A DNA stretch of 64,000 nt from assembly GCA_030068145.1 (NCBI GenBank), contig JAPJBO010000359.1, positions 1-64,000 of the forward strand. The letters are read 5' to 3'. A model generated the notes under the pieces. It saw nothing but the letters and a program-made list of their open reading frames with translations. It searched no databases and had not been told where the DNA came from. This DNA comes from Diplonema papillatum (lineage: Eukaryota; Euglenozoa; Diplonemea; Diplonemida; Diplonemidae). Within the stretch, counting starts at the first letter, position 1, and each line of letters starts with the position of its first letter. Below are positions 27,463 through 58,153 of this stretch, one piece after another. The position numbers and the translations under genes were made by a program.

Positions 27463-30400
27463 CTATCTTAACCTTCGGGTTTCCAATTGTGACTTGACAA
27501 ATCGAATACTAACACAGGTGTTATCATTCGACCCTGCCCTTTGCATACCTGAAGCATCACCAGCACTGGCGGCGTCCGAACGTGCCTGCAAAAACACGAG
27601 CTGCCTTGCGAGGGTTTTACTGGGACTGTTTGAGGTGCTGGACCTGCCTGGGGACAGGAAGACCGGGTCGGCCACACTATCAATAAACCAGTACCCAAGT
27701 TTTCCATCTCCCGCCAGCAGCAAATCCTTCAAGTTGGCAACTTCATTTCCACTTCCGGTGACGACGATCTCTACGTACACAAGACCTACGGCCAGGTCAG
27801 GCGCTGGGTCTGCTGTGACAACACCTCCCGCGACCGAACGGCGGAGAAGGTAGTTGAGGTAATCACGATCGTCGCAACGGAAATCGTCGTTCGACAGCAC
27901 TCCGCACATCTTGTTGAAGACGACGGATCCGTTGCCACTTCCAGCGCCGGCGAACAGCACATCTCCGGTACTCGCAATTTGGTCTTCCATCACTTCCACA
28001 CCCTTCAGGTTGGCCCACACGACATCAGCTACTGGGGGGGCCCTTAGAATCACGACAACGATCGCCGTCTTCATGTCAGTTTCGCCATCTTCACCGCTGC
28101 CAGCAGCCGCGCTGCCGTCGCCACTGTCTGGGGACAGGAAGACCGGGTCGGCCACACTATCAATAAACCAGTACCCAAGTTTTCCATCTCCCGCCAGCAG
28201 CAAATCCTTCAAGTTGGCAACTTCATTTCCACTTCCGGTGACGACGATCTCTACGTACACAAGACCTAAGGCCAGGTCAGGCGCTGGGTCTGCTGTGTCA
28301 ACACCTCCCGCGACCGAACGGCGGAGAAGGTAGTTGAGGTAATCACGATCGTCGCAACGGAAATCGTCGTTCGACAGCACTCCGCACATCTTGTTGAAGA
28401 CGACGGATCCATTGCCACTTCCAGCGCCGGCGAACAGCATATCTCCGGTACTCGCAATTTGGTCTTCCATCACTTCCACACCCTTCAGGTTGGCCCACAC
28501 GACATCAGCTACTGGGGGGGCCCTTAGAATCACGACAACGATCGCCGTCTTCATGTCAGTTTCGCCATCTTCACCGCTGCCAGCAGCCGCACTGCCGTCG
28601 CCACTGTCCGGGGACAGGAAGACCGGGTCGGCCACACTATCAATAGGCCAGTACCCAAGTTTTCCATCTCCCGCCAGCAGCAAATCCTTCAAGTTGGCAA
28701 CTTCATTTCCACTTCCGGTGACGACGATCTCTACGTACATAAGACCTACGGCCAGGTCAGGCGCTGGGTCTGCTGTGTCAACACCTCCCGCGACCGTACG
28801 GCGGAGAAGGTAGTTGAGGTAATCACGATCGTCGCAACGGAAATCGTCGTTCGACAGCACTCCGCACATCTTGTTGAAGACGACGGATCCGTTGCCACTT
28901 CCAGCGCCGGCGAACAACACTTCTCCGGTACTCGCAATTTGGTCTTCCATCAGTTCCACACCCTTCAGGTTGGCCCACACGACATCAGCTACTGGGGGGG
29001 CCCTTAGAATCACGACAACGATCGCCGTCTTCATGTCAGTTTCGCCATCTTCACCGCTGCCAGCAGCCGCGCTGCCGTCGCCACTGTCTGGGGACAGGAA
29101 GACCGGGTCGGCCACACTATCAATAAACCAGTACCCAAGTTTTCCATCTCCCGCCAGCAGCAAATCCTTCAAGTTGGCAACTTCATTTCCACTTCCGGTG
29201 ACGACGATCTCTACGTACATAAGACCTACGGCCAGGTCAGGCGCTGGGTCTGCTGTGTCAACACCTCCCGCGACCGAACGGCGGAGAAGGTAGTTGAGGT
29301 AATCACGATCGTCGCAACGGAAATCGTCGTTCGACAGCACTCCGCACATCTTGTTGAAGACGACGGATCCGTTGCCACTTCCAGCGCCGGCGAACAACAC
29401 TTCTCCGGTACTCGCAATTTGGTCTTCCATCAGTTCCACACCCTTCAGGTTGGCCCACACGACATCAGCTACTGGGGGGGCCCTTAGAATCACGACAACG
29501 ATCGCCGTCTTCATGTCAGTTTCGCCATCTTCACCGCTGCCAGCAGCCGCACTGCCGTCGCCACTGTCTGGGGACAGGAAGACCGGGTCGGCCACACTAT
29601 CAATAGGCCAGTACCCAAGTTTTCCATCTCCCGCCAGCAGCAAATCCTTCAAGTTGGCAACTTCATTTCCACTTCCGGTGACGACGATCTCTACGTACAT
29701 AAGACCTACGGCCAGGTCAGGCGCTGGGTCTGCTGTGTCAACACCTCCCGCGACCGTACGGCGGAGAAGGTAGTTGAGGTAATCACGATCGTCGCAACGG
29801 AAATCGTCGTTCGACAGCACTCCGCACATCTTGTTGAAGACGACGGATCCGTTGCCACTTCCAGCGCCGGCGAACAACACTTCTCCGGTACTCGCAATTT
29901 GGTCTTCCATCAGTTCCACACCCTTCAGGTTGGCCCACACGACATCAGCTACTGGGGGGGCCCTTAGAATCACGACAACGATCGCCGTCTTCATGTCAGT
30001 TTCGCCATCTTCACCGCTGCCAGCAGCCGCGCTGCCGTCGCCACTGTCTGGGGACAGGAAGACCGGGTCGGCCACACTATCAATAAACCAGTACCCAAGT
30101 TTTCCATCTCCCGCCAGCAGCAAATCCTTCAAGTTGGCAACTTCATTTCCACTTCCGGTGACGACGATCTCTACGTACATAAGACCTACGGCCAGGTCAG
30201 GCGCTGGGTCTGCTGTGTCAACACCTCCCGCGACCGAACGGCGGAGAAGGTAGTTGAGGTAATCACGATCGTCGCAACGGAAATCGTCGTTCGACAGCAC
30301 TCCGCACATCTTGTTGAAGACGACGGATCCGTTGCCACTTCCAGCGCCGGCGAACAACACTTCTCCGGTACTCGCAATTTGGTCTTCCATCAGTTCCACA

Positions 30401-33400
30401 CCCTTCAGGTTGGCCCACACGACATCAGCTACTGGGGGGGCCCTTAGAATCACGACAACGATCGCCGTCTTCATGTCAGTTTCGCCATCTTCACCGCTGC
30501 CAGCAGCCGCACTGCCGTCGCCACTGTCTGGGGACAGGAAGACCGGGTCGGCCACACTATCAATAGGCCAGTACCCAAGTTTTCCATCTCCCGCCAGCAG
30601 CAAATCCTTCAAGTTGGCAACTTCATTTCCACTTCCGGTGACGACGATCTCTACGTACATAAGACCTACGGCCAGGTCAGGCGCTGGGTCTGCTGTGTCA
30701 ACACCTCCCGCGACCGTACGGCGGAGAAGGTAGTTGAGGTAATCACGATCGTCGCAACGGAAATCGTCGTTCGACAGCACTCCGCACATCTTGTTGAAGA
30801 CGACGGATCCGTTGCCACTTCCAGCGCCGGCGAACAACACTTCTCCGGTACTCGCAATTTGGTCTTCCATCAGTTCCACACCCTTCAGGTTGGCCCACAC
30901 GACATCAGCTACTGGGGGGGCCCTTAGAATCACGACAACGATCGCCGTCTTCATGTCAGTTTCGCCATCTTCACCGCTGCCAGCAGCCGCGCTGCCGTCG
31001 CCACTGTCTGGGGACAGGAAGACCGGGTCGGCCACACTATCAATAAACCAGTACCCAAGTTTTCCATCTCCCGCCAGCAGCAAATCCTTCAAGTTGGCAA
31101 CTTCATTTCCACTTCCGGTGACGACGATCTCTACGTACATAAGACCTACGGCCAGGTCAGGCGCTGGGTCTGCTGTGTCAACACCTCCCGCGACCGAACG
31201 GCGGAGAAGGTAGTTGAGGTAATCACGATCGTCGCAACGGAAATCGTCGTTCGACAGCACTCCGCACATCTTGTTGAAGACGACGGATCCGTTGCCACTT
31301 CCAGCGCCGGCGAACAACACTTCTCCGGTACTCGCAATTTGGTCTTCCATCAGTTCCACACCCTTCAGGTTGGCCCACACGACATCAGCTACTGGGGGGG
31401 CCCTTAGAATCACGACAACGATCGCCGTCTTCATGTCAGTTTCGCCATCTTCACCGCTGCCAGCAGCCGCACTGCCGTCGCCACTGTCTGGGGACAGGAA
31501 GACCGGGTCGGCCACACTATCAATAGGCCAGTACCCAAGTTTTCCATCTCCCGCCAGCAGCAAATCCTTCAAGTTGGCAACTTCATTTCCACTTCCGGTG
31601 ACGACGATCTCTACGTACATAAGACCTACGGCCAGGTCAGGCGCTGGGTCTGCTGTGTCAACACCTCCCGCGACCGAACGGCGGAGAAGGTAGTTGAGGT
31701 AATCACGATCGTCGCAACGGAAATCGTCGTTCGACAGCACTCCGCACATCTTGTTGAAGACGACGGATCCGTTGCCACTTCCAGCGCCGGCGAACAACAC
31801 TTCTCCGGTACTCGCAATTTGGTCTTCCATCAGTTCCACACCCTTCAGGTTGGCCCACACGACATCAGCTACTGGGGGGGCCCTTAGAATCACGACAACG
31901 ATCGCCGTCTTCATGTCAGTTTCGCCATCTTCACCGCTGCCAGCAGCCGCACTGCCGTCGCCACTGTCTGGGGACAGGAAGACCGGGTCGGCCACACTAT
32001 CAATAAACCAGTACCCAAGTTTTCCATCTCCCGCCAGCAGCAAATCCTTCAAGTTGGCAACTTCATTTCCACTTCCGGTGACGACGATCTCTACGTACAT
32101 AAGACCTACGGCCAGGTCAGGCGCTGGGTCTGCTGTGTCAACTCCTCCCGCGACCGAACGGCGGAGAAGGTAGTTGAGGTAATCACGATCGTCGCAACGG
32201 AAATCGTCGTTCGACAGCACTCCGCACATCTTGTTGAAGACGACGGATCCATTGCCACTTCCAGCGCCGGCGAACAGCACATCTCCGGTACTCGCAATTT
32301 GGTCTTCCATCACTTCCACACCTTTCAGGTTGGCCCACACGACATCAGCTACTGGGGGGGCCCTTAGAATCACGACAACGATCGCCGTCTTCATGTCAGT
32401 TTCGCCATCTTCACCGCTGCCAGCAGCCGCGCTGCCGTCGCCACTGTCTGGGGACAGGAATACCGGGTACGCCACATTTTCAATAGGCCAGCTACCTATT
32501 TTTGCATCGCCTGCCCGCAGGAGATCCGGAAGGTCTTGCGCTTCGTTTCGGCTTCCGACGACGATGATTTCAACGTAAACAGAGCCGAAGGCCAGGTCAG
32601 GCGCGGGGTCTGCTGTGTCGACACCTGCCGTGCCCAGGCCGCCGAGAAGGACGTTGATGGCGGCACGGTTCTCGCAACGGAAGGCTCCGTAGGAAGGCGT
32701 TCCGCAGACCTTGTTGACGTACGCGGTTCCGTCGCGAGCGCCAGCGAACAGCGCGTTTCCGGTGCTCGCGACGTGGTCCACGATCGCTTCCATGCTGGTG
32801 GGGCTGTCCCATGTCACGTCACTCGGAGCGGCCAAAAACACGCCGACGATCGCCGTTGTGTTCGCTGCTTCCGCTGCAGGCGTGCCGCGGTCTCCACCGC
32901 ATGAGGACAGGTACACCGGGTCGGCAACACTTGCAATCCAGTCGTCTTGAAGCTTCTGGTCGCCGGCTAGTAGGATACCCGGGAGGCCTTGCGCTTCTTC
33001 ACCGTTCCCGAGGACAACAACCTCCAAGTACACCTGTGAGGAATTGACGCCCGATGCGGGGTCCACAGTGGCAACTCCAGGTGTGGATGTGCGGTTGAGG
33101 AGCTCGCTGACGAACGCGCGGTCGACGCAAACCCAGGTGCCGTTGGAATGGATTCCGCAGATTTTGTTGAGGTACACGGCGCGAGGACCGATCCCGCCGC
33201 CGACAGACCCCGCGAACAGGAAGGCCCCGGCTTCCGAGACGCTGTCCGAAATCGTCGCCACGTGCTGCGGGTCGTCCCACAAATCAGAAAGCGACACGTC
33301 CAGCGTCACGCCGACGGTCGCCGTTGTCGTGCATTCAGAACGGACTCGGTCGACCCGCGAGACGCCGGCTATGAAGAAGGACCACCAAATTCCTATCAGG

Positions 33401-33429
33401 AAAACGCAGGGAACGAGCCTCTGCAACAT
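27463..33429 (-). CDS. Secreted or surface protein of 12 tandem modules
   Basis: A 1,988-residue intronless frame starting at a true ATG. The first 22 or so residues are hydrophobic (LVPCVFLIGIWWSFFIAG), a signal peptide or anchor. Two diverged modules follow, then ten nearly identical modules of 160 residues, then a short unique tail without a membrane segment. Each module begins around TAIVVVILRAP, holds two conserved Cys (NKMCGVL and FRCDD), probably a disulphide, and ends in VADPVFL plus an acidic Ser/Gly linker. I recognise no domain family. Extracellular location is inferred from the leader and the Cys pair. Modules alternate between W-F-I-D-S and W-P-I-D-S types, showing a two-module unit of amplification. 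Adhesion or wall roles are guesses. Confidence 0.75.
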   Translation of the reverse strand: MLQRLVPCVFLIGIWWSFFIAGVSRVDRVRSECTTTATVGVTLDVSLSDLWDDPQHVATISDSVSEAGAFLFAGSVGGGIGPRAVYLNKICGIHSNGTWVCVDRAFVSELLNRTSTPGVATVDPASGVNSSQVYLEVVVLGNGEEAQGLPGILLAGDQKLQDDWIASVADPVYLSSCGGDRGTPAAEAANTTAIVGVFLAAPSDVTWDSPTSMEAIVDHVASTGNALFAGARDGTAYVNKVCGTPSYGAFRCENRAAINVLLGGLGTAGVDTADPAPDLAFGSVYVEIIVVGSRNEAQDLPDLLRAGDAKIGSWPIENVAYPVFLSPDSGDGSAAAGSGEDGETDMKTAIVVVILRAPPVADVVWANLKGVEVMEDQIASTGDVLFAGAGSGNGSVVFNKMCGVLSNDDFRCDDRDYLNYLLRRSVAGGVDTADPAPDLAVGLMYVEIVVTGSGNEVANLKDLLLAGDGKLGYWFIDSVADPVFLSPDSGDGSAAAGSGEDGETDMKTAIVVVILRAPPVADVVWANLKGVELMEDQIASTGEVLFAGAGSGNGSVVFNKMCGVLSNDDFRCDDRDYLNYLLRRSVAGGVDTADPAPDLAVGLMYVEIVVTGSGNEVANLKDLLLAGDGKLGYWPIDSVADPVFLSPDSGDGSAAAGSGEDGETDMKTAIVVVILRAPPVADVVWANLKGVELMEDQIASTGEVLFAGAGSGNGSVVFNKMCGVLSNDDFRCDDRDYLNYLLRRSVAGGVDTADPAPDLAVGLMYVEIVVTGSGNEVANLKDLLLAGDGKLGYWFIDSVADPVFLSPDSGDGSAAAGSGEDGETDMKTAIVVVILRAPPVADVVWANLKGVELMEDQIASTGEVLFAGAGSGNGSVVFNKMCGVLSNDDFRCDDRDYLNYLLRRTVAGGVDTADPAPDLAVGLMYVEIVVTGSGNEVANLKDLLLAGDGKLGYWPIDSVADPVFLSPDSGDGSAAAGSGEDGETDMKTAIVVVILRAPPVADVVWANLKGVELMEDQIASTGEVLFAGAGSGNGSVVFNKMCGVLSNDDFRCDDRDYLNYLLRRSVAGGVDTADPAPDLAVGLMYVEIVVTGSGNEVANLKDLLLAGDGKLGYWFIDSVADPVFLSPDSGDGSAAAGSGEDGETDMKTAIVVVILRAPPVADVVWANLKGVELMEDQIASTGEVLFAGAGSGNGSVVFNKMCGVLSNDDFRCDDRDYLNYLLRRTVAGGVDTADPAPDLAVGLMYVEIVVTGSGNEVANLKDLLLAGDGKLGYWPIDSVADPVFLSPDSGDGSAAAGSGEDGETDMKTAIVVVILRAPPVADVVWANLKGVELMEDQIASTGEVLFAGAGSGNGSVVFNKMCGVLSNDDFRCDDRDYLNYLLRRSVAGGVDTADPAPDLAVGLMYVEIVVTGSGNEVANLKDLLLAGDGKLGYWFIDSVADPVFLSPDSGDGSAAAGSGEDGETDMKTAIVVVILRAPPVADVVWANLKGVELMEDQIASTGEVLFAGAGSGNGSVVFNKMCGVLSNDDFRCDDRDYLNYLLRRTVAGGVDTADPAPDLAVGLMYVEIVVTGSGNEVANLKDLLLAGDGKLGYWPIDSVADPVFLSPDSGDGSAAAGSGEDGETDMKTAIVVVILRAPPVADVVWANLKGVEVMEDQIASTGDMLFAGAGSGNGSVVFNKMCGVLSNDDFRCDDRDYLNYLLRRSVAGGVDTADPAPDLALGLVYVEIVVTGSGNEVANLKDLLLAGDGKLGYWFIDSVADPVFLSPDSGDGSAAAGSGEDGETDMKTAIVVVILRAPPVADVVWANLKGVEVMEDQIASTGDVLFAGAGSGNGSVVFNKMCGVLSNDDFRCDDRDYLNYLLRRSVAGGVVTADPAPDLAVGLVYVEIVVTGSGNEVANLKDLLLAGDGKLGYWFIDSVADPVFLSPGRSSTSNSPSKTLARQLVFLQARSDAASAGDASGMQRAGSNDNTCVSIRFVKSQLETRRLR
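27640..32450 (-). repeat. 480-bp coding tandem repeat with a 960-bp higher-order unit
   Basis: Ten units with boundaries such as 28072, 28552, 29032, 29512 and 29992 differ by only a few bases. Diagnostic bases (AATAAACCA against AATAGGCCA, CGAACG against CGTACG) alternate unit by unit in the middle of the array. The pattern fits unequal crossing-over of dimers. Confidence 0.9.
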
Positions 33430-42731: not shown

Positions 42732-42816
42732 GCCGCCCACGTGAGCACTGTTAAGCATTGAGTTCTTTTAAGTACATGAACCACATGGATTAGCATGCAC
42801 TGCCTTGAAAGTCAGG

Positions 42817-45800
42817 TTATCGGATGACGTCGTCACCTGCCATCGCGTCGTCAAGGTCGAGCATTTGTGGAGCTAGCGGGGTTTGGCTTTCTTGCGATTC
42901 CAGAGACTGAGTCGGCGAGTACGAGGGCGGGCACGTGTGCCCGTTTTTGACTCTTGAGGGCATTGGCGTGCCCGTGGTCCCCGGTCGTTTCTGAGAGCTG
43001 CTTGCCCTCGGAACCTTCTTCTTCCTTCGATGCACCCCTGAGTCGGGGGTGGTCGCCTTCGTCTTCTTCCGCTTGCGGCCGGCGATCGGGCCTTCCTTCG
43101 GGGTGCCAAGCACCCTCTTCTTCAGCGCTGGTCGTTCGCTGGTTCCTGGCGTTGGTGGCGGCCTCTTGGTCGCCCGTCCGGTTGCCGCCGTCTCCTTTTT
43201 CGTTGCCGCGAGCGGCGCTCGCGCCGCTCGCGCCGCTCGCGCCGCTCGCTTTCCTAATGGCGTCTCCCGCTGTACACCCACCTGGGTGGGTGAGGAGGGC
43301 CTCTTCTTCTTGTTGCGTCCGGGGGTTGACTGGACGTTCGGCTTGTTGGACTGGTGGTGGCCGCGGCTGCAACATGCCGCCGGTCGCCTCTGCGTCAGCG
43401 TAGGGAGCCTTTTGCACTCTTGGCAGGTTCCTCTGCCATGCGTGCGGCAGGCATGATGCCCGCTGCGGCAACACGCCGCCGCCGTCTTGCACTCGCCGCA
43501 CTTCGTCGTGCTGTGCTCTGTGCACACCGCGATCGGCTGCCCATCGTTCGCGTGGTGATGGTGCCGGCAGCACATCTCTACCGTGGGAACGTCCCTTCGG
43601 ACGAGTGCTCTGCACGCCTCACACTTCCCTTTGTGATGGGTCGCGCACGTGACGAGTGCCTTCTCTATACCGACACCCGGCATATGCACGGGGTCTGGGT
43701 GCAGTTGTGGTGGGGCAGGCAGGGCCCACCTCGCCGCTCTCCCGATCGTCCAGTCAGGGTACGCCGGGCACTGCGTCCCTACATCGCTTCCTTTCACTTG
43801 TTCCTCAAGTATCGTCCCCGTGTGTGCCTCGCGAAAGCGTGGCCTGGGCCGTATACCCGATATCCCCGAGATGCCCATGAACGACAGCGACGTCGTCGGG
43901 CACACCCTCTCCCCTCTCATGCAGCTTCCCAGCCCTTGCTGTGCCGCCAGCTTGTCCAACGCGCTCATCATGCAGCGCAGGACGTTTCCCCGTTCTCTCA
44001 CCCCCTTCGGCGCATTCCCGTGCAGCGGCATGCTGAGGCCCGAGAAGAGTTCAAAGTCGATCGCAAGCTCTAGCATTGACGCCTGCCCGCTCTCGGTCCA
44101 CTGCATGTCAGACAGCCACGCTACCAACGCATAAAACGTCGGTAGTCCCCAGGTCTTGTTTCGCTCCCACGTCCATGCCGGGGCAATCCGCGCAAAGGGG
44201 TGGTCAAATTTCTCGGCAGGCATCGCATCCGCTCTCGACCAGGGGGTCGTGGGGTTCCTGGCTACCCAGCCACGTGCTTCGAGCCCTGCCCGTTCCGCAA
44301 GGATTTCAGCCATCATCTCCTGGAGCCGCCTCGATAAGTGGGCGTTCTCCGGTACAACCACACCATGTTCCAGCGTGCATCGGGGCCACTCGGTTCGGTT
44401 GGCCGCCATCAGCCCGGCGTGTGCTTCCCGCCGGCGAATGTGTGAGTATGCGTCGCAGTCCCAGTAGATATGCTGTTCGTTCTCCGTCACGCCGCTCCCA
44501 CAGTGCTTGCAGCTGGGCGCCTGCGGCTCAGCTCCGGCCTGCCTCATCCGCGACGTGAACTCCGCCGTGTTCACACCCCCCGCAATCGCAACTCGAATTA
44601 GCTTCGCCGTGTGCGCGGAACATTCCCTCGTCTTCCAGAACGCATTCGTGCGCTCCAAGTCGGCTCTTTCCAGCCCCTGATATCCTGGCCTTCTCGCCAT
44701 CAGTCGGGCCCACGTCCTCGTTCTCAGGTCCGCCCTCACTTCGTGCCCCCTCTTCGAGGGCGACGAGGCCAGCGGGTCGAACACTGCACCATTCCGTCGT
44801 AGCGTGCGAGATAGGGGCCCAGGTTCCCATATGTGTCCACACTCCTCCATGCTCCTCATCGCCAGCCCGACTGGGCCGAGGGGTTGGTCCCCCTCGGCGT
44901 ACCGCCCCCGGATACTCTCCATCAGAGGTAGCAGTCGCGGCAGCCTCTCGCACGCCGCGTAGAACGCCGTCGTCACCCGGTACGCTAAACACGTACCGGG
45001 GTCCGTCAGGTGGCCCTTCTCCTGGAAGTTCAGGACCATTTCTCTCGCGCGCTTCGGGTTTGCTCCACCCCAGATCAGACCCATCACCGACGTCGTCAAC
45101 CGCTTCATCGCCACCTTCGACACCGGCGCGAAGGAGCAGCCTGATAGCGCTGCCGGCAACACATTCGACTGCACAATACGGACCCGCTTTTCGTACCGGA
45201 ATGGCGCGTGGCGGAGGCCTTCCGCTAGGGCCGCCGCCCTCTCTACCCTCTTAGAGTCGGACCTCTCCTTTCTGTTCTTCGCCGTTGAGACTAGGGCCCC
45301 CAGACACGTGACGGACTTGCTAAATCGCAGCAGCGCATTTCCGCTTCGGAGTCTGAGCGTCGACTGGTGCCTCTGCCTCGTCGAGAATGCGATGGTCTTC
45401 TCGAGGTTTAGCTGCATTCCGGTGAGTGTGCAGAACTCGTCAACAATGTCGACTCCCTTTTGCAGTGCGGCCTCCGACAGCCTGGACAGTAGTGTGGCAT
45501 CATCCGCGTACGACTTAGGACTCACACCCTCAGCTTCTTTCTTGACCGCTTTCATCACTACCGACAGCAGGGCATTGATGAGTATGACGGACACAGGGCA
45601 CCCTTGAAGGATACCGTTGGTCACACTAAACTCCCTGCCCACCCCTAGCGGCAACTTGAAGCGTCTCGCGAGCAGACTGTAAATCGCCCTCAGCGGCTTG
45701 AGAACCCGACCGTGCAGTCCTAAGTCCTCAGCCAAGCGTAGCACTACCTCTCGCGGGACCATGTCGAAACACTTCCGGAAGTCCAGCGCCACTCCGTAGA

Positions 45801-48765
45801 GCGGCTCTCCGTCCAGCAAGGCGTCCTCCACCTCGAGCCCTATCTCCATCAAGACGTCCTCGATCCGGTGGCCCGGCCGAAAGCCTTTCTGTCCTTCTTC
45901 GATCCACCCCTCCTGCCACAGGACAATGTCCGCAAGCCTGCGGCAGGCCCACAAGCGGTACACGGCGGATGTGACGGTTATCGGCCTCGTGTGCAGCGGG
46001 TCTTGGCTCTCATCTTTCGGCACCATCGACACCAGCGCAGTTGTCATGCTTGCCGGCCAGTCCCCAGTCGCTTCGACCAGGTTCATGACGTCTGCAAGTG
46101 CATTCAGCAGGGGGAGCGGCAACTCCCGCAGTTCAGCCATACGCCAGCCATCCACCCCTGACGCGCTTTTCTTCGGCTTCTTCCTCAGCAGAATTCGCAG
46201 CTCCTCCCCCGTGATTGTTCCGGCTTCCATCAAGTGTGGGCCGATGTGATCCTGGAACCGATCCCGAAACGGCTCGTACTCCGGCTCTGGCCCGTCCTTG
46301 TACTTACGCAGGATAGGGTCCCACGCAGTGTTCAGCGCCTCGTCCATCTCGTCAACATTTGCAGTCACACCCGCCCCCGTTCGCAACACCCCCGACGGCT
46401 CAGCGCGTCCGGCGCAGATGGTTGTCAGACATCGTCTGCTCGCATCGGCCCTCTCGTTCAGCTTGTCTCGGTACTTCGTAAACCTGGCCGCCGATCCTTC
46501 CCTTCCGAGCCTACTCGTCTCTTCCCGCAATGCCGTGAGAAGCTGCTTCGCCTCCTCATGATCCGGGAATCCTTCTGTCCCTTGGCCACCTTTCATGCAC
46601 GCCTGTGCCAGCCGTCTGCTGTTCTGCCAGCAACGGGATACTTCATGCGGAACTGCCTCCGGCCCGCGTCGCTGCGCAAGGTAGCTGCAGATGCGTTCCA
46701 TCCTGTGGATGGCCTTCCGGAGCCGTAGCTGTCTGCTGTTCGCCGCCCCCGACCCGTCGCTCGCAGTGCTTGCCGTGATACAGACTCTCTTAGGCGACGT
46801 CTTTATCCCCCGGCCGGTACTCCTTCCCCTTTCTTCCGCAGGGATTCCGAAGGCATCCTGCAAGTACTGCTCACTGACTCGTGACCACTCGAGCCAGGCC
46901 TCTTCCACTCGCTGTGCTGCCAGCCGTTCTGCGAAATCGGAGTTGGTCAGTCTCTGTACGGCTTCCCTGTTAGCTTCTGTGTCCGAGAGGCCCCACTTGG
47001 GTCCCCCCTCGGTAGGGATTTCCCGCGGTACTTTAAATCGCCACACGATTTGGCGCAGCGCCGCAATGTCCAGGGTCATTGTCACGAGCCGGTGTCCCGG
47101 TACGTTCACCGCGGTGGTGACGCATTGACGGAAAGCTCCCGTCGTTATTCGGTTGAGGAGTATGCGGTCGATCCTCGTGCCTGTCGTCCGGGCGCTGGTA
47201 AAGGTCGGTGGTGGCGGTGTGTCACCGGTACGCGCATGGTGCAGTTCCGCTGCGTCGGACCATCCGTTCCTTAGTGCCTTCCGCAGCACAGGGGACCGGT
47301 CTTCTTCCGTGTTCAGGTCACCCATCACCATTATGGGGACGTCACCGAGGCTATCTGCCGCTGCGAAGAGGATCTTCTCCAGCATGTCCTCACGCTCCTC
47401 GCTCTCCGCCCTCCCGTTTCCGGAAGGGCAGTAGACATTGAACACGTGCACGAACGTGTTGCCGGCCCCTGTTGCTACTACCGTATGGCTCACTCGGTCC
47501 GGGGACCGTATTGCTGCGTGCGAGAGCGCCGTCATCGTATCGTACGCAGGTATCGGTCTCAGTACTAGAGTGGAGAGCCCTCCGTTCGCGGCGTTCACCG
47601 TCGAGCGACTACCGGAGTTTCTACAGAGTCTTCCGGGAGGCGGCAGGCCCCAGTGGCAGCACCATTTCCGCAGGTATTCCTCCGCCTGCGCCCGTTTGCA
47701 CGGAAGGAGTGTCACCTCCTGGCAGCAGAGAAGATCCGCTTCCACCGCGTCGGCCGCTGGGAGATATTGAAGTAAGCTAGTTACGTTCAACGTCGCGAAC
47801 TTCATCTCCGTGCGGCCGGGGCCCGGGTTCTGTTCGATGTCTCCAGCGCTTAACAGCTGCTGTCTAGTAGTTTCCTTAATAGATATAAGAGTTCTTTGGC
47901 GATTACACAAGTCAGTACGTGGCGCGGGGCTGAACTGTTGCTGGGGGGGTGGGGAGGACGCCTGAGGGCGGGGCGGGGGGGGCATGGGGGGAGTTTCTTG
48001 CGGGGTGTCCCGGCCTTGCAAACGTTGGGAGGCGGCCTCGCGCACGGCCCTGTAGGTGAGCGAGACCCGGTCGCGTGCGACATCATCGGGACGAATCCCG
48101 TGTGTCCACAGGCTCCTGGCCTCGCCTTCCATGTGGCACAGTGTGCCGACCGGCAGGGGGGTTCTCACTCTCCGGCTCCCCCTCTCCCACTCCATGACCG
48201 TGTCGCTCAAGAGCGATATGGTCGCTACCCTCGGACCCAGTTCTCTCTGGTCTTTGTGGGGGTTGATCCCCACTCCCCTCCGGTACCAGTTGGCCAGCAA
48301 CTGGTCCGGTTCCCACCCGAGACGGTCACGTATGAGATCCGCCGCTTCTTTCAGGGGCCCCTCGGGGATACCCCGTTCCAGTCTGACCGGGGGTCCGCCC
48401 TGTCGGTAGGCGTGTCCCCACTGCTGGGTCTCTCTGCTTTGTTCTCCCCCCAGCCTCCTCCAAGTGGCTTTCGGCCCGAGCTCGGGTACTCGGCTCAGTC
48501 TGTCCAGAAGATCCCGAGGGATCGTCTGGAAGCTTAGTCCGGGGATTGCTCCCTCCACCCTGACAGGGCCCCCCCCGCAGGCACGCTGGCCTTTGTGGGG
48601 GGATTGTTTGTGCGCTGCGGGTAAATTTCCCGGGCTAATGAGGCCTGGCGCATTGTGGGAGAGAGGGGGGCAAAAAGAAGAAGAAGAAGAAGAGGGATCG
48701 CCACCACCTTCGCCTGCTCCATCGTCGAACTGCGTGCTGGGACTCACGCGCTGGGCGGCCTGCAC
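42817..48765 (-). CDS. LINE ORF2: AlkB, 2A, AP endonuclease, RT, Cys/His array
   Basis: 1,982 codons counted from a GTG; the frame is open from the ORF1 stop at 48814, with no ATG before the first domain. Residues 75-240: AlkB-like dioxygenase with iron ligands His170, Asp172, His222 and 2-oxoglutarate arginines Arg233, Arg239 (RVSLTYR). Residues 308-316: 2A peptide GDIEQNPGP. Residues 319-570: AP-type endonuclease (Glu350, GDLN 482-485, Asp533, His558). Residues about 855-1130: reverse transcriptase (LDFRKCFD, QGCPVS, YADD 1086-1089). Residues 1419-1437: CCHC-type finger. About 1550-1582: conserved ELAIDFELFSG block. 1707-1804: Cys/His array. Then a basic tail to 1982. The expected job is target-primed reverse transcription of the element RNA. 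The AlkB domain may repair or demethylate nucleic acid (inference). Confidence 0.88.
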   Translation of the reverse strand: MQAAQRVSPSTQFDDGAGEGGGDPSSSSSSFCPPLSHNAPGLISPGNLPAAHKQSPHKGQRACGGGPVRVEGAIPGLSFQTIPRDLLDRLSRVPELGPKATWRRLGGEQSRETQQWGHAYRQGGPPVRLERGIPEGPLKEAADLIRDRLGWEPDQLLANWYRRGVGINPHKDQRELGPRVATISLLSDTVMEWERGSRRVRTPLPVGTLCHMEGEARSLWTHGIRPDDVARDRVSLTYRAVREAASQRLQGRDTPQETPPMPPPPRPQASSPPPQQQFSPAPRTDLCNRQRTLISIKETTRQQLLSAGDIEQNPGPGRTEMKFATLNVTSLLQYLPAADAVEADLLCCQEVTLLPCKRAQAEEYLRKWCCHWGLPPPGRLCRNSGSRSTVNAANGGLSTLVLRPIPAYDTMTALSHAAIRSPDRVSHTVVATGAGNTFVHVFNVYCPSGNGRAESEEREDMLEKILFAAADSLGDVPIMVMGDLNTEEDRSPVLRKALRNGWSDAAELHHARTGDTPPPPTFTSARTTGTRIDRILLNRITTGAFRQCVTTAVNVPGHRLVTMTLDIAALRQIVWRFKVPREIPTEGGPKWGLSDTEANREAVQRLTNSDFAERLAAQRVEEAWLEWSRVSEQYLQDAFGIPAEERGRSTGRGIKTSPKRVCITASTASDGSGAANSRQLRLRKAIHRMERICSYLAQRRGPEAVPHEVSRCWQNSRRLAQACMKGGQGTEGFPDHEEAKQLLTALREETSRLGREGSAARFTKYRDKLNERADASRRCLTTICAGRAEPSGVLRTGAGVTANVDEMDEALNTAWDPILRKYKDGPEPEYEPFRDRFQDHIGPHLMEAGTITGEELRILLRKKPKKSASGVDGWRMAELRELPLPLLNALADVMNLVEATGDWPASMTTALVSMVPKDESQDPLHTRPITVTSAVYRLWACRRLADIVLWQEGWIEEGQKGFRPGHRIEDVLMEIGLEVEDALLDGEPLYGVALDFRKCFDMVPREVVLRLAEDLGLHGRVLKPLRAIYSLLARRFKLPLGVGREFSVTNGILQGCPVSVILINALLSVVMKAVKKEAEGVSPKSYADDATLLSRLSEAALQKGVDIVDEFCTLTGMQLNLEKTIAFSTRQRHQSTLRLRSGNALLRFSKSVTCLGALVSTAKNRKERSDSKRVERAAALAEGLRHAPFRYEKRVRIVQSNVLPAALSGCSFAPVSKVAMKRLTTSVMGLIWGGANPKRAREMVLNFQEKGHLTDPGTCLAYRVTTAFYAACERLPRLLPLMESIRGRYAEGDQPLGPVGLAMRSMEECGHIWEPGPLSRTLRRNGAVFDPLASSPSKRGHEVRADLRTRTWARLMARRPGYQGLERADLERTNAFWKTRECSAHTAKLIRVAIAGGVNTAEFTSRMRQAGAEPQAPSCKHCGSGVTENEQHIYWDCDAYSHIRRREAHAGLMAANRTEWPRCTLEHGVVVPENAHLSRRLQEMMAEILAERAGLEARGWVARNPTTPWSRADAMPAEKFDHPFARIAPAWTWERNKTWGLPTFYALVAWLSDMQWTESGQASMLELAIDFELFSGLSMPLHGNAPKGVRERGNVLRCMMSALDKLAAQQGLGSCMRGERVCPTTSLSFMGISGISGIRPRPRFREAHTGTILEEQVKGSDVGTQCPAYPDWTIGRAARWALPAPPQLHPDPVHMPGVGIEKALVTCATHHKGKCEACRALVRRDVPTVEMCCRHHHHANDGQPIAVCTEHSTTKCGECKTAAACCRSGHHACRTHGRGTCQECKRLPTLTQRRPAACCSRGHHQSNKPNVQSTPGRNKKKRPSSPTQVGVQRETPLGKRAARAARAARAPLAATKKETAATGRATKRPPPTPGTSERPALKKRVLGTPKEGPIAGRKRKKTKATTPDSGVHRRKKKVPRASSSQKRPGTTGTPMPSRVKNGHTCPPSYSPTQSLESQESQTPLAPQMLDLDDAMAGDDVIR
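43354..43647 (-). other. C-terminal Cys/His array of LINE ORF2
   Basis: Three imperfect repeats of the pattern C-x2-H...C-x2-C...CC-x2or3-HH (for example CATHHKGKCEAC and CRTHGRGTCQEC), a probable zinc-binding nucleic-acid module. The same module ends the unrelated LINE at 55792-58153 and is retained in the fragment at 1-938. Confidence 0.7.
47818..47844 (-). other. 2A ribosome-skipping peptide
   Basis: The codons spell GDIEQNPGP after a hydrophobic run (QQLLSA), matching the consensus D-(V/I)-E-x-N-P-G-P. Ribosomes skip the Gly-Pro bond, so the AlkB part would be released from the endonuclease-RT part, which starts two residues later. 2A peptides are known in some trypanosome and sea-urchin LINEs. 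Confidence 0.9.
48046..48543 (-). other. AlkB-like 2OG/Fe(II) dioxygenase domain in ORF2
   Basis: The order NWYRRGVGINPHKD, then GTLCHMEGEARSLWTHGI, then RVSLTYR reproduces the AlkB fingerprint (N-x-Y-x2-G-x2-I-x2-H-x-D, distal His, R-x5-R). All catalytic residues are present, so an active enzyme is likely. The substrate cannot be told from sequence. Confidence 0.85.
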
Positions 48766-48813
48766 CGGCCTGGCGGGGCCACAACTGGCGCCGGGGACGG
48801 GTCGCGGTGGCAG

Positions 48814-48816
48814 TCA
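48814..48816 (-). other. In-frame TGA between ORF1 and ORF2
   Basis: The stop is followed by CTG, and 16 further codons lead to the nominal GTG start of ORF2. Both ORFs are in frame zero relative to each other, and ORF2 has no ATG before residue 191. Stop-codon readthrough or reinitiation at a non-AUG codon is required to make the AlkB domain. Confidence 0.7.
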
Positions 48817-50629
48817 ACCCGCACACGCCTTGCACGCGCCGACGTTGCAGCCCTCGCATGTCGTGCGGATCTGGCCCTTCGCCTTCTTCTTCCCGCATAG
48901 GGCGCAGGAGAAACCGGCGGTGGCCTTCGCCGGGCTCCCGAAGGCGTGGACGTGCCCGCCCGCCTCTGCACCGTCCATTGGGACATCGTCCCCAGCGGGT
49001 TCCGGCCCGTCCGCTGCCGGCTCCGGCGTCTTCCTCTTCTTCTGTCCGGCCGCGTCCGCTGGCGGGGCCGCCGGCTGCGGTAGCTCGTCCACCTCCGCCG
49101 CCGGCAGCCGCATCCGCCGCTTCCCGCTGGGGGCGGCAGCGAGCCGCCTGCGCCGCTCCCTCGGCAGCTCACCTCCGTCGTACGGGTTTACCCGGAGGTC
49201 GGGTGCCCCCTCCCGCTGCAGCACCCTGAAGGGAGGGTCGGCCGCCGACGTCACCACGCAAACCCGGGCCCCACTTCGCAGGAACGACGTGGCGACGTCG
49301 ACCTGCCAGCCGGCCTCCCGCAGGACGTACTCGACGTCCGCCTCGTGCTCCCGCGGCGTCGCACCCACCACGAGGAAGCGCGGCTTCGACTCGAGGGGGG
49401 CAGCAGCGTGTTCGGCGGCCGCCGCACGCACCTCCTCCAGCACAGCGCCGCTGCGTGCGCGCACGAGGAGGCGGCTGCCCGTGAGCACGAGACCGGCTGC
49501 CGCCGCGCCTGCCCGCTCAGCTACCGCCAGCGCGACCGCCCTCGTGACCCCCTTTTGCAGGGCGACCACCGGCATGGCGTCCCGGCAGGCCTTCTCCGTC
49601 GACCGCCAGAATCCGCCGTTGGCCAGGATCGCTTCGGCGCGCGCGGGGCACCCGCACGACCAGCTCGCGCCTCCCCTGCTGCGACGACACGCCCCACATG
49701 GCGTCGTCGGGGACGCGGACCTCCGTCTTCAGGGCCGTCTTGACAGCCCTCCGGCACAGGCGAGTCAGGGCCGTGCGCGGGTCCCTCTCGACGCACTCCC
49801 AGGTCTCCGGCGAGGCGTGCTTCCTGGCCACGACGAAGGCCAGTACCGTCGTCGCGGCGTTCGGCTTCACCGCGCCGACGGGCATCTTCTGGACCTTCAC
49901 CTGGCCCCGCTGGCATACCGGCCCGCCGCCCGCCCACAGGTACATATCCTGTACCCGCCCGCCTTCCAGCAGCACTGGGCCCCGGCGTGCGTCGTCGAAG
50001 GCCTCCCGGCACAGCACGCCGAGGCGCACCCGCTTCCCGTCGCGCTCTGCGACGTCCACCGCATCTGCTGCGGGACCCTTCGCTTCTTCGGCTGCGGCGG
50101 CGCTCGGGGCGACCCAGAGGCCAGCTTCGACAGCTTCGAAGTCGGGGGAGGGGAGTACCGGCGCGTCCCAGTCGGCGGCGTCGATTTTACCGGGTGGCGG
50201 GGGCCGCCTGGTCACTTCTGCCCAGGTGGGCGCGTACCCCTGCCGGGGCCGCTGTTGTGGTTGTTGCTGCTCCTGCGGGCGGCGCTGCTGCGTTTGCTGT
50301 TGCTGTTGCTGTTGCGGTTGCGGTTGTTGCTGCTCCTGCGGGCGGCGCTGCTGCGTTTGCTGTTGCTGTTGCTGTTGCTGTTGCTTGCTGCGGTTGCTGC
50401 TGCTGCTGCTGCTGCTGGTTGCTGCTGCTTGCTGCTGCTGCTGCTTCGGTTGCTGCTGTTGCTGCAGTGGCGGCCGTTGTTGCGCCGGCTCCCCGCTGTT
50501 CGCCTCGATCTGACGCCGGAGCAGCGTCGTGGCGACGTCGAGGATGCCGAAAACGGCATCCAGCTGGTCGCGGTTGGCGCGTTCCGCCATCCCGCGCGCT
50601 TCCTGGATCAGGGCGTTAATCCTGTCCAT
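48814..50629 (-). CDS. LINE ORF1 (RNA-binding-type protein), frame disturbed
   Basis: True ATG at 50629. N-terminal helix (INALIQEARGMAERAN), then Gln/Ser-rich low complexity encoded by CAG/CAA repeats (50225-50480), a conserved core with ADWDAPVLPS and later ALKTEVRVPDDAMWG, and a C-terminal zinc-binding motif: C-x2-C, eleven or so residues, C-x2-C-x4-C-x2-C, ending CKACAG. The frame opened at 50629 breaks near 49640-49649 in a C/G-rich run. Removing one base restores a continuous product of about 604 residues (protein text on the far side is clearly the same domain). Either programmed frameshifting, a sequencing error or a young mutation. It ends at a TGA in frame with ORF2. Confidence 0.75.
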
Positions 50630-50776
50630 TTTGACGGAGCTACGGGTAGCCCGCGTTCTTTTCGCGGATGGGTACCGCTGTTGTGTTATGGAGGGTGTTT
50701 GTCCTGGATGAATTCCGGGCGCACTTTACCGGCCGCGTGAGCAGCCAATAAAGTACAGAAACTGTAGCTTTTAAAT

Positions 50777-51187
50777 CGTTCGTTTGTTAAGCATTGAGTT
50801 CTTTTAAGTACATGAACCACACGGATTAACATGCACTGCCTCGATAGCCAGGTTATCGGATGACGTCGTCACCTGCCATTGCGTCGTCAAGGTCGAGCAT
50901 TTGTGGCGCTAGCGGGATTTGGCTTTCTTGCGATTCCAAAGACTGAGTCGGCGAGTGCGGGCAGGAGTGCCTGTTTTCCACTTTCGAGGGCATTGGTGTG
51001 CCCGTGGTCCCCGGTCGTTTCTGAGAGCTGCTTGCCCTCGGTACCTTCTTCTTCCTTCGATGCACCCCTGAGTCGGGTGTGGTCGCCTTCGTCTTCTTCC
51101 GCTTGCGGCCGGCGATCGGGCCTTCCTTCGTTCGTATGTTTAGCATTGAGTTCTTTTAAGTACATGAACCACATGGATTAGCATGCA
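50777..51187 (-). mobile_element. Truncated AlkB-LINE copy, head to tail with the full one
   Basis: A 3' coding fragment of ORF2 (51133-50853, last 93 or so codons to GDDVI-R and stop) plus the first 80 bases of its 3' UTR. The fragment is bracketed by two copies of the 50-bp motif (51138-51187 and 50788-50834) that normally opens the 3' UTR. It adjoins the 5' UTR of the full element. Relative to ORF2 it lacks a few residues in the tail (HSCPHSPTQ). Non-functional. Confidence 0.75.
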
Positions 51188-52576
51188 CATGTTTAGCAGC
51201 GGCTGCCAAACATCCACCGCGCAAGGTGGTAAAAATTGGAGGCTTTTCGGCGCAGATCTGCTGGGTACAGCTTGGCCAGTTCGCCCCGGATTGCTGTCTA
51301 CCGCCGTGTAGGCGAGGAGCTGCGAAAGCTGAAAGAGAGCCTGGATCCCCTTTTCCTTCTTGTGCTTCGTTCAAGATCTTCTTCACTGATCTTGCTGCTT
51401 GATTTCATGCCGAATCGACGGTCAACCATGTCGTCCTAGGGTACGGTTTGCCAGAAGCCCAACCTCTCGCACAACCTGCTCCAGAGCCTTCTTTCCCGCA
51501 CGCTTCTTTGTTCCATGCCAAACTCGTAAATATGCGCCTGAGCTTTTTCGCGTTGCCGGCAGGCTTGTCTTCGTCTTCGTAGTCACTTGGCGCGTCGTAG
51601 GTCCGGTCCGGGTATCGAACTCGCTCTCTTCACTTGCAGTGGACGTCTCTTCACAAGTATCGCATCTTGGTCTCTTTGGCATGCGTGTCTTTCATAATCA
51701 ACAAGGCGCCCGGCAGGTTTTGGTCTTCTGCAGATGCGTGAATACAGCGACTGGTCACAATGCCCTCCAACTGCGCGCGGTGTCCCTACGTTAGTCCGCG
51801 CGCACAAGCGTGGTCTAGAAAACAGACGGCAGAAATTTACACCAAAGAAAAGTCTTTCCCCCCCCCCCCCCCCAAAAAAAAAAATTTGTTCTCTTCTGAA
51901 AGAGAAAAAAGGAACTATGACTACCAAACAACTAATAGTGTCAACGAAGCATTGCTACAAAGAACACCGCGATACCTTGTTGCGACAGTGCACCCGCGTC
52001 ATACGAGGACACCGCCTGATATGGCAAGAACGTCGTCGACGCACTTGTTCATATCCTGTGAAAGGGTTGATTTTAGAGTCAAGTCAAGAAGACCGCCAAC
52101 ATCAGGACGGCGAACGGTATGGTACACCTAATTCAGACTTTTGGAATGCTGTGCAGCCTTTCCCGGCTGAATGAACCACTCGAATACACCCGTCCCGCCG
52201 AAGAGTCCGGGACACGCTTGTACCGCCTCGCGCGTGCTGACCTCTCTTGCACCGGCGCGAACGACCTTCTCGGTACGCAAACAGTACAGGCACGGCATCG
52301 CCTCTGAGGCTGGTACTCCGAGCTCATGGGTTTTAACTTTAGTCTCATCGTCTGTTACCGGAAGGTAGCAATATCTTTTCGTGATTGTCGGCGCGGACGT
52401 CGGTGTCCGCGCCGATTTGGGATGGCGGTCCTCCACAACTGTTGAGCAATCTGGTTGTGGCTGAGACCACTCATTACACCGACGTAGATGCGGGAGTGGA
52501 GAGTATGGTATGCAGCAATTTGCTGGGCTCGTCATCAATATGCTCCGGTACGAAGCTCTTCTCAGTCTTGCCAGTC
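51188..52576. other. Mostly unassigned region; C-run/A-run tract
   Basis: Apart from the small ORF at 51422-51682, no gene is recognised. A run of 17 C then about 12 A lies at 51860-51890. A minus-strand frame (52128-52583) includes CLYCLRTEKV and may be a remnant. Confidence 0.35.
51422..51682 (-). CDS. Small hypothetical basic protein
   Basis: An 86-codon frame from a true ATG. The N-terminal part has a Cys pair (RCDTCEETS) and acidic/Thr-rich linker. The C-terminal half is basic (YLRVWHGTKKRAGKKALEQ). Only modest resemblance to small basic chromatin-type proteins, no confident family. It may be a gene fragment, because coding character fades after the stop. Confidence 0.3.
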   Translation of the reverse strand: MPKRPRCDTCEETSTASEESEFDTRTGPTTRQVTTKTKTSLPATRKSSGAYLRVWHGTKKRAGKKALEQVVREVGLLANRTLGRHG

Positions 52577-55791: not shown

Positions 55792-58153
55792 TCACGTTAC
55801 TGCAGATGCTCCCCCAGGCTGTGCGTGGGGGTCTGTGTTTTTCTGTGGGTGATGCCTCTGGCAGCAATGCACGATCTCCAGGCCGCCCGCTGTGCAATCG
55901 CCGCAGCGTCCCAATCTGTGGGCAGGGCAGAAGAGCATTCGTGGTCGCAGGCCGTCCCCCTCACGGTGGTGCTGTTTGAACCGGCAACAGGTTTCCGCCG
56001 GCAAACGCTTCTTTGTACAGTCCTTGCAGCGTGGTTTCCGGTGTTGCACACATATTTCTCCAGGGCGGGATGTGTTCACCGCGTCTTCCGGTGCCTTCTT
56101 GGGTGGTGACCCTCTGCGAGGTCCAGCGCCTGTTACTCTCTCTACCATCTCCACTCTCTGTTTCCAGTTAGTCTTTCCTTGTTCCCATCCTGCAGGGTAG
56201 GCTTTCTCCGGCAGATAGGTTGCCGCCCACGTCAGGTGCTGCGGGTACAAGTTGGTCTCCGCCTGCGCTGTGCCCATCTTCTGCACATGTTCCCGTATGC
56301 CTAGGATCACCTCGTCCGTCTCATCCGAAAGTTGCGCCCGCCGCGACGCTCCCCTTACAACTGATCCTCCGACGGCAGTTAAGATCGTTGTTGTTGCTTC
56401 GTGGCCACTGAACCACTGTCGTCCAGTTACCTTCTTGAATGCTGAGCCTAACTCAATTAGGCTCATCGCTTTTCCGAGTGCGGAGGCACGGAAGGACTGC
56501 AGCTCCGCTTCCTGCTGCTCCCGCGTTGGTCGTTGGCCTTGCACGAGGTCCATTGCCGCGTTGCTCAGAGCATCCGCATCGGTGTTTTGCTCGCGCTTCA
56601 CGTGTTCTACCCGCAGGGAAAGCCGCTGTCGCAGGGCCACTATTTTTGCCACCGCTCGCGTCAGCAATGGCTTCAAGTCTTCTGAACACGCCAATTGCCG
56701 CGTGGTTTGCCCGACTACCAGCGCCGAGTCTCCGCGAATTACACACTGCGCTCCTTCCGTTCCTTCAGCATCCTCCAGGAGCTGCAGCCCCGCGAGAAAT
56801 CCCTCGTACTCGGCCACGTTGTTACTGCGCACGTTTGGCAGCGGGAGCACTATTTGTGCGTACTTGACGCCCTCCTTGTACAGTACCGCTCCTGCGCCCG
56901 CCACGGCAAAGGCAGTCCCGTTGGCCCTCGCTCCTCCGTCAAAGTAGATTGCAACATCGCAACTAGCTGCGGCGTCTTCTGGCAGAGTCTGTCGTGCTGT
57001 TGTGGCCTTCTTCGTGTGTTGTGGCACCGCCGTGTAGTATCTACTTTTGAGCGTTGGGAGGCGGCGTCCGGTGCGCAACTCGAAGTCCACCGCCAACTCC
57101 ACAAAGCTTACCCCGAGTTCGTGCCCCGGCGGCGCCCATTTCAATTCCCTCAGCCAATCCGTGAACGCCATCCACATCTCCGGGCCGTACTTCCACTGGG
57201 TGAGTACTGCCGAAGGCGCAACGTCCGGCACAGCCAGTTTGTGTGGTTCTGCTGGTTTCCATCGTCGCGGATACTCAAGCGTTCGGTGGTGCCGTGTAGA
57301 CCTGTCCAGCATGTCATCTGCCCCTTGACGTGCAGACAGCACCTCCACGAAGTAAAAGTGCAGTTTCTCAAGCAGCTGAAGCCTCTTTCCCTGTTCGGTG
57401 GGTAAGAGATTCGGGTCGTGGAAAGCGGGAGCCACCCCGCACAACCGTAAGCATGGCGGCCACCTGTGTTGCACGGTTCTTAGCTCCCCGTACTTTGAGC
57501 GTATTGTCTCCCAGGCGGGGCATTCCCAAAACAGGTGTTCCACCGTCTCCGGGACCTGTGTGTCACAGTAAGGGCACTCGCTTGCGTTTAGTCCTGTTCG
57601 TCCCGTGACCGGCGTGGCTCCTGCGATTACCGATCTCAGCAGACCGGCCTGGTACGCGGTGAGTGGTGAGTTCCGCATTTCCAAAACGTGCCTCGTTGCT
57701 GCGAAATCGACTCCGCCCTGGACGCCTCCATAGTCATTTCCCCTCCTTGTCGCCAGTCGCGCCATTTCCCGCAAACGCAGGGCATGTCTCAAGTCATGTT
57801 GCAGGAGGCGCGAATTACCCAGGACCGCTGCATCATGCACGACTCCTTCTCCTACCTCATTCACGTACGCGACGCTTGTCGGGGTCACCCACCTCCACTG
57901 GAGTACGTTGAGCGCTTCTTTCAGGAAAGCGAAGGGCCCATGTAGCCTTGCCAGTTCGTCGTTGTGGGCCCATGCTGTTTCCGCCAACGCTCGGGCGTAG
58001 TCCCACTTTTGGACCTGTTCGGCCCAGGTTGTGACTCTCCTGTAGGCCGGTACGACTCCCGGGTCCAGCCTGTGCCCGTGGTGTAGGATGTGTAGCACTG
58101 CTTCCTGAGCTCGTCGTGGCGGCCCCGTCCATACCGCCTCCGTAACCGGTTAC
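55792..58153 (-). pseudogene. 5'-truncated LINE tail with RNase H (in kinase intron)
   Basis: An open frame of about 785 codons, entered after a stop near 58155, with no ATG start. In the 768-residue numbering from 58098: a CCHC-type finger (Cys175, Cys178, His188, Cys193), the conserved block SFVELAVDFELRTG (331-344), an RNase HI domain (Asp387, Glu430, Asp457, His499, Asp507), and a C-terminal Cys/His array (CVQHRKPRCKDC, CPAHRLGRCGDC). No reverse transcriptase remains, so this is a 5'-truncated insertion. The frame is intact to its TGA, so it is young. It differs from the AlkB-LINE by having RNase H, yet shares the block and array. Confidence 0.8.

Follow-up and report, generated by a model that had tools for sequence, protein, structure and literature searches.

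A Diplonema papillatum LINE carries a predicted AlkB-family dioxygenase between a conserved in-frame UGA and a 2A motif

We describe a LINE of the marine protist Diplonema papillatum whose coding frame includes a predicted AlkB-family dioxygenase, preceded by an in-frame UGA that joins it to ORF1 and followed by a 2A (StopGo) motif, an endonuclease, and a reverse transcriptase (RT). The copy analysed spans approximately positions 42750–50780 on the minus strand of a 64,000-nucleotide stretch of genomic DNA, referred to throughout as the window. On balance, we favor a model in which this autonomous APE-type LINE has the frame ORF1–UGA–AlkB–2A–endonuclease-RT, such that readthrough and skipping would generate ORF1p-AlkB and endonuclease-RT and AlkB would demethylate the RNA of the element.

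Results

Domain organization of the window copy

The original prediction located a LINE with an AlkB-like dioxygenase at positions 42817–48813 of the window. These coordinates are right and correspond to an open frame of 1998 codons on the minus strand, which is bounded upstream by a stop codon at 48814–48816. The copy and its borders contain the following features; the original prediction did not include ORF1 across the UGA, the break in its frame, or the spliced leader, nor that the element exists in many copies.

42750–42800 (−), 3′ end of the element (...AACTCAATGCTTAAC), then the right target half (ACGTGGGCGG)
42817–48813 (−), ORF2, an open frame (1998 codons plus stop) for AlkB, 2A, endonuclease, RT, and a Cys/His-rich C-terminus
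43354–43647 (−), repeated Cys/His-rich stretch at the C-terminus, from sequence
44455–44511 (−), CCHC-like motif downstream of RT, from sequence, which we take to resemble zf-RVT
45382–45996 (−), reverse transcriptase core (RVT_1), with YADD at 45499–45510
47059–47805 (−), APE-type endonuclease domain, from the Exo_endo_phos match and motif positions
47818–47844 (−), 2A/StopGo motif GDIEQNPGP, between dioxygenase and endonuclease
48043–48540 (−), AlkB-like 2OG-Fe(II) dioxygenase domain, from the Pfam match and ligand positions
48247–48261, 48100–48102, and 48049–48069 (−), AlkB ligand sites: HxD, the second His (within HGIRP at 48088–48102), and the Arg pair in RVSLTYR, respectively
48814–48816 (−), in-frame UGA joining ORF1 to the AlkB frame, with CUG as the next codon
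48814–50629 (−), ORF1 with a C-terminal Cys-rich motif, the frame being broken in this copy into pieces 49517–50629 and 48814–49575
50746–50780 (−), spliced-leader exon (nucleotide 5 onward) at the 5′ end of the copy
50786–50836 (−), 3′-end stub of an earlier copy, adjoining the 5′ end upstream; an older stub lies at 51138–51188

Pfam models matched the ORF2 frame in the order AlkB, endonuclease, and RT: 2OG-FeII_Oxy_2 (PF13532; E 5.6e-12 and 46.7 bits, above the curated threshold of 31.2), Exo_endo_phos (E 1.4e-8), and RVT_1 (E 1.1e-18). The APE endonuclease followed by RT in a single frame identifies the element as an APE-type LINE. These matches and the position of GDIEQNPGP confirm the earlier proposal of a LINE with endonuclease, RT, and 2A in one frame. 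Among solved structures, human LINE-1 ORF2p was closest to the RT (E 7.1e-15); the endonuclease matched no solved structure at E 0.1.

The profile search thus gave significant backing to the AlkB domain that had been recognized from its fingerprint, and the match reached E 1.8e-13 when the AlkB segment was searched alone. All of the ligands named in the original prediction (His170, Asp172, His222, Arg233, and Arg239, numbered from the GTG at 48765, which equals frame position minus 16) are present. All 15 transposon AlkB rows (6 LINE, 6 Helitron, and 3 from a third kind of repeat) retain the HxD...H iron ligands and the R-x5-R pair, and none shows the ligand mutations that the original prediction had named as evidence against it. 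The domain did not reach the stricter NCBIfam AlkB equivalog model (14.7 versus 231 bits). Its profile match and ligands place the predicted dioxygenase in the AlkB family. Among solved structures, human ALKBH8 was nearest to the AlkB region of the window alone (E 2.4e-7) and was also the best match of a profile built from four transposon AlkBs (E 2.7e-16). Fission yeast P8A3.02c, ALKBH3, ALKBH2, a DNA 6mA demethylase, and ALKBH6 came next with the same profile; matches to ALKBH5 and bacterial AlkB were weaker.

Several other features of the window were observed. An 868-aa ORF at 9919–12525 (+) combines an RT-like stretch with a downstream ubiquitin hydrolase domain (UCH, E 3.9e-21) and may be a further element that has captured a domain. 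The segment at 55792–58098 (−) encodes the C-terminal portion of a different LINE, a distant relative with 26% identity, in which an RNase H domain (RVT_3, E 2.9e-9) is accompanied by a Cys/His-rich end like that of the AlkB LINE. At 27463–33429 (−), a 1988-aa ORF consists of near-identical repeats of ~170–180 aa, for which Pfam matches were short and unconvincing.

Copies and subfamilies

The D. papillatum genome is reported to comprise ~280 Mb and to contain a dozen AlkB homologues alongside ~2,500 gene models of transposons (PMC10161547). We searched 271 Mb in 2,910 contigs. A query consisting of 2A and endonuclease gave at least 150 scored genome matches among 885 first-look candidates. 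The copies fall into subfamilies distinguished by frame length: fam1, to which the window copy belongs (1992 aa), fam2 (2004/2007 aa), and fam3 (2002 aa). Over the longest aligned piece (~7.7–8.6 kb), the fam1 copies fetched show 97.6–98.7% identity to the window; fam2 shows ~93% identity over 5.8–6.0 kb and ~84–87% in pieces upstream of that. Of the 150 matches listed for the 2A-endonuclease query, 19 have frames of 1992 aa. Among the 150 matches listed for the Pfam AlkB search, 29 have 2002-aa frames, 6 of which score alike with the fam3 loci that were read. A further 22 score 53.8 bits, slightly below those loci, and are absent from the 11 places of the fam3 UGA pattern; the UGA and 2A readings given below for 2002-aa frames cover the fam3 group. 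One 2002-aa frame (C107) groups with fam2 in the 2A-endonuclease search. The LINE family comprises at least three subfamilies and, to judge from the similarity of its copies, is young and recently active.

Some copies are 5′-truncated (e.g., L025, L049, and L051), with L025 ending just before the 2A. Among the copies read for target-site duplications, short ones were seen in some (L011 and L014) and none in L020. At 3–479 (+), the window contains the terminal part of another copy of the AlkB LINE, 98.7% identical over 159 aa. We rejected an LTR element as an interpretation, the repeats at both ends being neighboring copies or 3′ stubs. Scans of viral contigs revealed no relatives.

Selection on the AlkB domain

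We estimated dN/dS from Nei-Gojobori counts with 95% codon-bootstrap intervals, using one representative of each subfamily (the window, L018, and L054); variants of AlkB inside subfamilies are too few for dN/dS, and all values are between subfamilies. For AlkB (166 codons), dN/dS was 0.265 between fam1 and fam2 (interval 0.13–0.51), 0.152 between fam1 and fam3 (0.08–0.25), and 0.157 between fam2 and fam3 (0.08–0.28). The corresponding values for the endonuclease were 0.126, 0.152, and 0.162, and that for RT, compared between fam1 and fam2 only, was 0.08. The linker preceding AlkB gave 0.56–0.82 (fam1-fam2 0.82, interval 0.46–1.50) and the linker after it 0.49–0.56, or 0.50–0.77 when its bounds were set slightly differently; both have wide intervals with upper ends of at least 0.95. 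For the 30 residues that end in the 2A, dN/dS was 0.23–0.38. These values place the AlkB domain under purifying selection, although its fam1-fam2 value is looser than that of the endonuclease and has an interval that overlaps that of the N-terminal linker.

The 2A motif

GDIEQNPGP agrees with the 2A consensus known from the literature, D[V/I]ExNPGP, the activity of which depends on context (PMC4981915). As the original prediction would require, the motif is conserved: it is exact in 31 of 31 loci (L001–L025, L049, and L051–L055), which represent 28 copies besides the window, L003–L005 being the same places as L006–L008; 25 of the 31 (L001–L025) were found or fetched by a query that contained the motif. 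AlkB and 2A are in different frames in L053. Assuming equal residue frequencies, we estimate that D-x-E-x-N-P-G-P (six fixed residues) would be expected by chance ~3e-5 times in 1998 codons. Because of this low expectation and because the motif occupies the same AlkB-endonuclease junction in three diverged subfamilies, a chance 2A is no serious rival.

A conserved UGA joins ORF1 to AlkB

ORF1 and AlkB share a frame across a single UGA, and this relation is the same across the three subfamilies despite indels that separate them. Apart from the window copy, all 12 fam1 loci fetched (L006–L017) have an ORF1 without breaks up to the UGA; in fam2, ORF1 is interrupted in four of seven loci fetched (L019, L021, L022, and L024). 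When the genome was searched with exact-context patterns for each subfamily in which the stop codon position was left open, UGA occupied that position in 110 of 111 matches (fam1, 37/38; fam2, 62/62; fam3, 11/11). The sole exception, in fam1, reads CGA. The next codon is CUG in fam1, CUA in fam2, and CUG in fam3; the C-terminus of ORF1 differs in fam3, and UGA CUG is nonetheless identical. In other eukaryotes, readthrough is promoted by C after UGA and by a CUA motif (PMC12233894). As for a conserved RNA structure after the UGA, six copies were folded individually, and the folds varied from one subfamily to another.

Of 23 frames read, 21 lack an AUG ahead of the HxD motif. Codon 17 after the UGA is AUG in L006 and L017 (2 of 13 fam1 frames) and GUG in the other fam1 frames, CUG in the three fam3 frames read, and TTA or GTA at the aligned position of fam2. 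The 16 codons after the UGA show dN/dS of 0.11–0.19 (10–15 codons compared), as if they were translated. By these comparisons, the UGA is a conserved and putatively leaky stop with an in-frame coding extension, the arrangement that characterizes programmed readthrough. UGA as a sense codon is disfavored, since ORF1 and ORF2 of L006 (~2,610 codons) contain only one UGA, at the ORF1/AlkB junction. The conserved in-frame UGA and the 21 AUG-less frames suggest that AlkB is most likely a C-terminal extension of ORF1p.

Spliced leader and insertion site

The 5′ ends of the elements bear AACCAACGATTTAAAAGCTACAGTTTCTGTACTTTATTG, whole or nearly so, which is identical to the 39-nt euglenozoan spliced leader listed in PMC3795323. 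Followed by GT, the leader occurs 236 times in the genome, partly in an array of ~1.24-kb spacing as expected for spliced-leader RNA genes. Many copies end in ...AACTCAATGCTTAAC (or CTAAAC or CTCAAC) against the right target half. Empty target sites of the form GGCARCCGCTGCTWAAC-N4-12-ACGTGGGCGG have 725 exact matches genome-wide, compared with 0 for the reversed pattern. Some of them are arranged in tandem, 624 bp apart (C15 and C17). The 3′ end of a copy lies directly upstream, or within ~50 bp upstream, of 14 of 16 distinct leader junctions, the exceptions being L020 and the first junction of L017. It looks as though the element has a site preference and as though insertion leaves the right target half usable again. 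In the window and six loci, Rfam returned 0 matches at gathering, and the target was not recognized as a known structured RNA.

Nineteen stub-leader junctions were listed by a pattern that required the leader from nucleotide 5 on, so that shorter leaders, such as that of L023, are undetectable. They start at leader nucleotide 1 in 9 cases, 2 in 6, 3 in 1, and 4–5 in 3; three of the 15 starts at nucleotide 1 or 2 lean on overlap with the stub. Since the junctions start at the first leader nucleotides, the templates were probably leader-bearing RNAs copied near the cap. In L010, two additional bases separate the leader from the element body.

Related AlkBs in Helitrons and a third repeat

The Pfam AlkB model had at least 150 scored matches in the genome among 250 candidates, and Helitron_like_N had 68. 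The two lie on the same strand, 2–4 kb apart, at five places (C65, C166, two on C930, and C1735), where a spacing that is a multiple of three and open frames of equal length indicate a single frame; on C249 they are ~3 kb apart in different frames. In these Helitron-like loci (L033, L034, and L043–L046, on C65, C166, C249, C930, and C1735), AlkB is on the N-terminal side. Helitron AlkBs are 42–48% identical to those of the LINE and show dN/dS of 0.14 (L033-L036) and 0.18 (L033-L044, dS 1.2). A third kind of AlkB repeat (L040–L042; frames of 359–520 aa) is 43–47% identical to the LINE AlkB, and L041 has no Pfam domain besides AlkB. L040 also includes one of the empty LINE target sites.

Across five query rows, AlkBs of different transposon kinds score 94–140 bits against one another versus 69 bits or less against host AlkBs. 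A 16-row tree, from which divergent host rows were dropped beforehand, joins all nine transposon rows with support of 95/96. With 22 rows, the host-transposon split had support of 68/81 and long host branches intruded; we did not retain a single transposon-AlkB clade.

Discussion

ORF1p of LINEs usually packages the RNA of the element. In the model that we favor, most ribosomes would stop at the UGA and produce ORF1p alone, and a minority would read through and append AlkB to ORF1p. Skipping of the bond at 2A would then yield ORF1p-AlkB-2A and a separate endonuclease-RT, with the dioxygenase carried on ORF1p.

Our tentative candidate for the substrate of AlkB, the least certain step of the model, is the element's own RNA, from which methyl groups would be removed before or during target-primed reverse transcription. 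Candidate marks include m6A, which would affect the fate of the transcript, and marks of the m1A/m3C type, which would block reverse transcription. This choice follows from the predicted coupling of AlkB to ORF1p, the ALKBH8 profile match, and the precedent of an RNA demethylase in orchid elements considered below; ALKBH8 itself acts on RNA. The presence of AlkB in Helitrons, which copy through DNA, argues instead for a DNA or general role. Moreover, an m6A eraser need not help the element, given that in mammals m6A reportedly helps L1 and ALKBH5 reportedly suppresses it (PMC7873242).

It is possible, if less probable, that the dioxygenase acts on DNA or on host marks, demethylating the target or the element DNA (e.g., at 6mA, m1A, or m3C) for repair or escape from silencing. 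The same kind of AlkB in Helitrons and the profile matches to ALKBH2, ALKBH3, and the DNA 6mA demethylase would fit such a role; ALKBH8 is nevertheless the best match, and the predicted ORF1p-AlkB would be separate from the endonuclease. AlkB enzymes are not known to remove 5mC or base J. The Diplonema genome paper reports RNAi together with genes for 5mC methyltransferases and for base J (PMC10161547), which would suit a DNA-directed role.

The original prediction envisaged a dioxygenase released in free form by the 2A. One part of this proposal stands, in that the 2A would separate AlkB from endonuclease-RT; the other part conflicts with the in-frame connection to ORF1 through the conserved UGA and with the general lack of an AUG before HxD. 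A free enzyme would call for independent initiation after the UGA (at a non-AUG codon, by reinitiation, or by internal entry), which we regard as doubtful. The 2A motif itself fits such a product and codon 17 could serve as its start, being GUG or occasionally AUG in fam1 and a near-cognate CUG in fam3. Nothing comparable is offered by the TTA or GTA of fam2, however, and independent initiation would explain neither the frame shared with ORF1 in three subfamilies despite indels, nor the retention of UGA CU(A/G), nor the apparent translation of the few codons compared upstream of codon 17.

A more specific version of the RNA model, which we consider distinctly unlikely, is that AlkB tethered to ORF1p clears the cap marks of the spliced leader, along with marks of the m1A/m3C type, and thereby permits full-length copies. 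The modified bases m6,6A and m3U are expected to stall reverse transcription. Both occur in the hypermethylated cap 4 of the trypanosomatid leader (PMC11735809); the leader of this genome reads AACC, not AACU. That 15 of the 19 junctions listed reach leader nucleotide 1 or 2 suggests that RT reaches the capped end.

It is improbable that the domain is a leftover or a non-catalytic nucleic-acid-binding module. AlkB activity is a prediction from sequence, which leaves room for this explanation, but the ligands are intact in every transposon row and dN/dS is 0.15–0.27. An assembly chimera or chance fusion can be dismissed in light of the at least 150 genome matches, the recurrence of the 1992-aa frame among those listed, and the purifying selection.

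L1Tc, like the element described here, resides in a euglenozoan host. L1Tc of Trypanosoma cruzi and other 2A LINEs also contain an APE endonuclease, RT, and an in-frame 2A (PMC4981915). No AlkB domain is mentioned in the description of these LINEs consulted here (PMC4981915); in the present element, the 2A separates AlkB from the endonuclease, and a UGA connects ORF1 to the frame. Ty3/Gypsy elements of orchids carry an ALKBH5-like domain with RNA demethylase activity in vitro (PMC9289625) and are likewise retroelements with an acquired AlkB-family enzyme. The orchid element, however, is an LTR element with an ALKBH5-like domain in its own ORF, in contrast to an APE LINE with a polyprotein and an AlkB whose closest solved structure is ALKBH8. 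In plant RNA viruses (Alphaflexiviridae, Betaflexiviridae, and Closteroviridae), AlkB domains are thought to keep RNA intact (PMC9289625). They too belong to replicating RNA elements, but these are not LINEs. Retrotransposons with cytosine methyltransferases belong to a different element class. Such captured enzymes, found in dinoflagellates and charophytes (PMC5890265), are also modification enzymes carried as cargo, but they are writers rather than erasers.

No LINE or Helitron with AlkB appeared among the titles and abstract openings listed in searches of the open-access literature. AlkB as LINE cargo and this arrangement of known recoding signals therefore appear to be new within that scope, and we do not claim priority.

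If the LINE does encode its own demethylase, the effect of methylation on retrotransposition would become testable in a natural element by a single point mutation. The polyprotein apparently stacks two recoding events, UGA readthrough and StopGo. Should the dioxygenase also prove to act on the template as far as the capped leader, a step of RNA demethylation would be built into retrotransposition by an enzyme made through these stacked events, and the same kind of enzyme would be carried by Helitrons as well. The occurrence of related AlkBs in two unrelated classes of element within one genome suggests that mobile DNA benefits from the enzyme.
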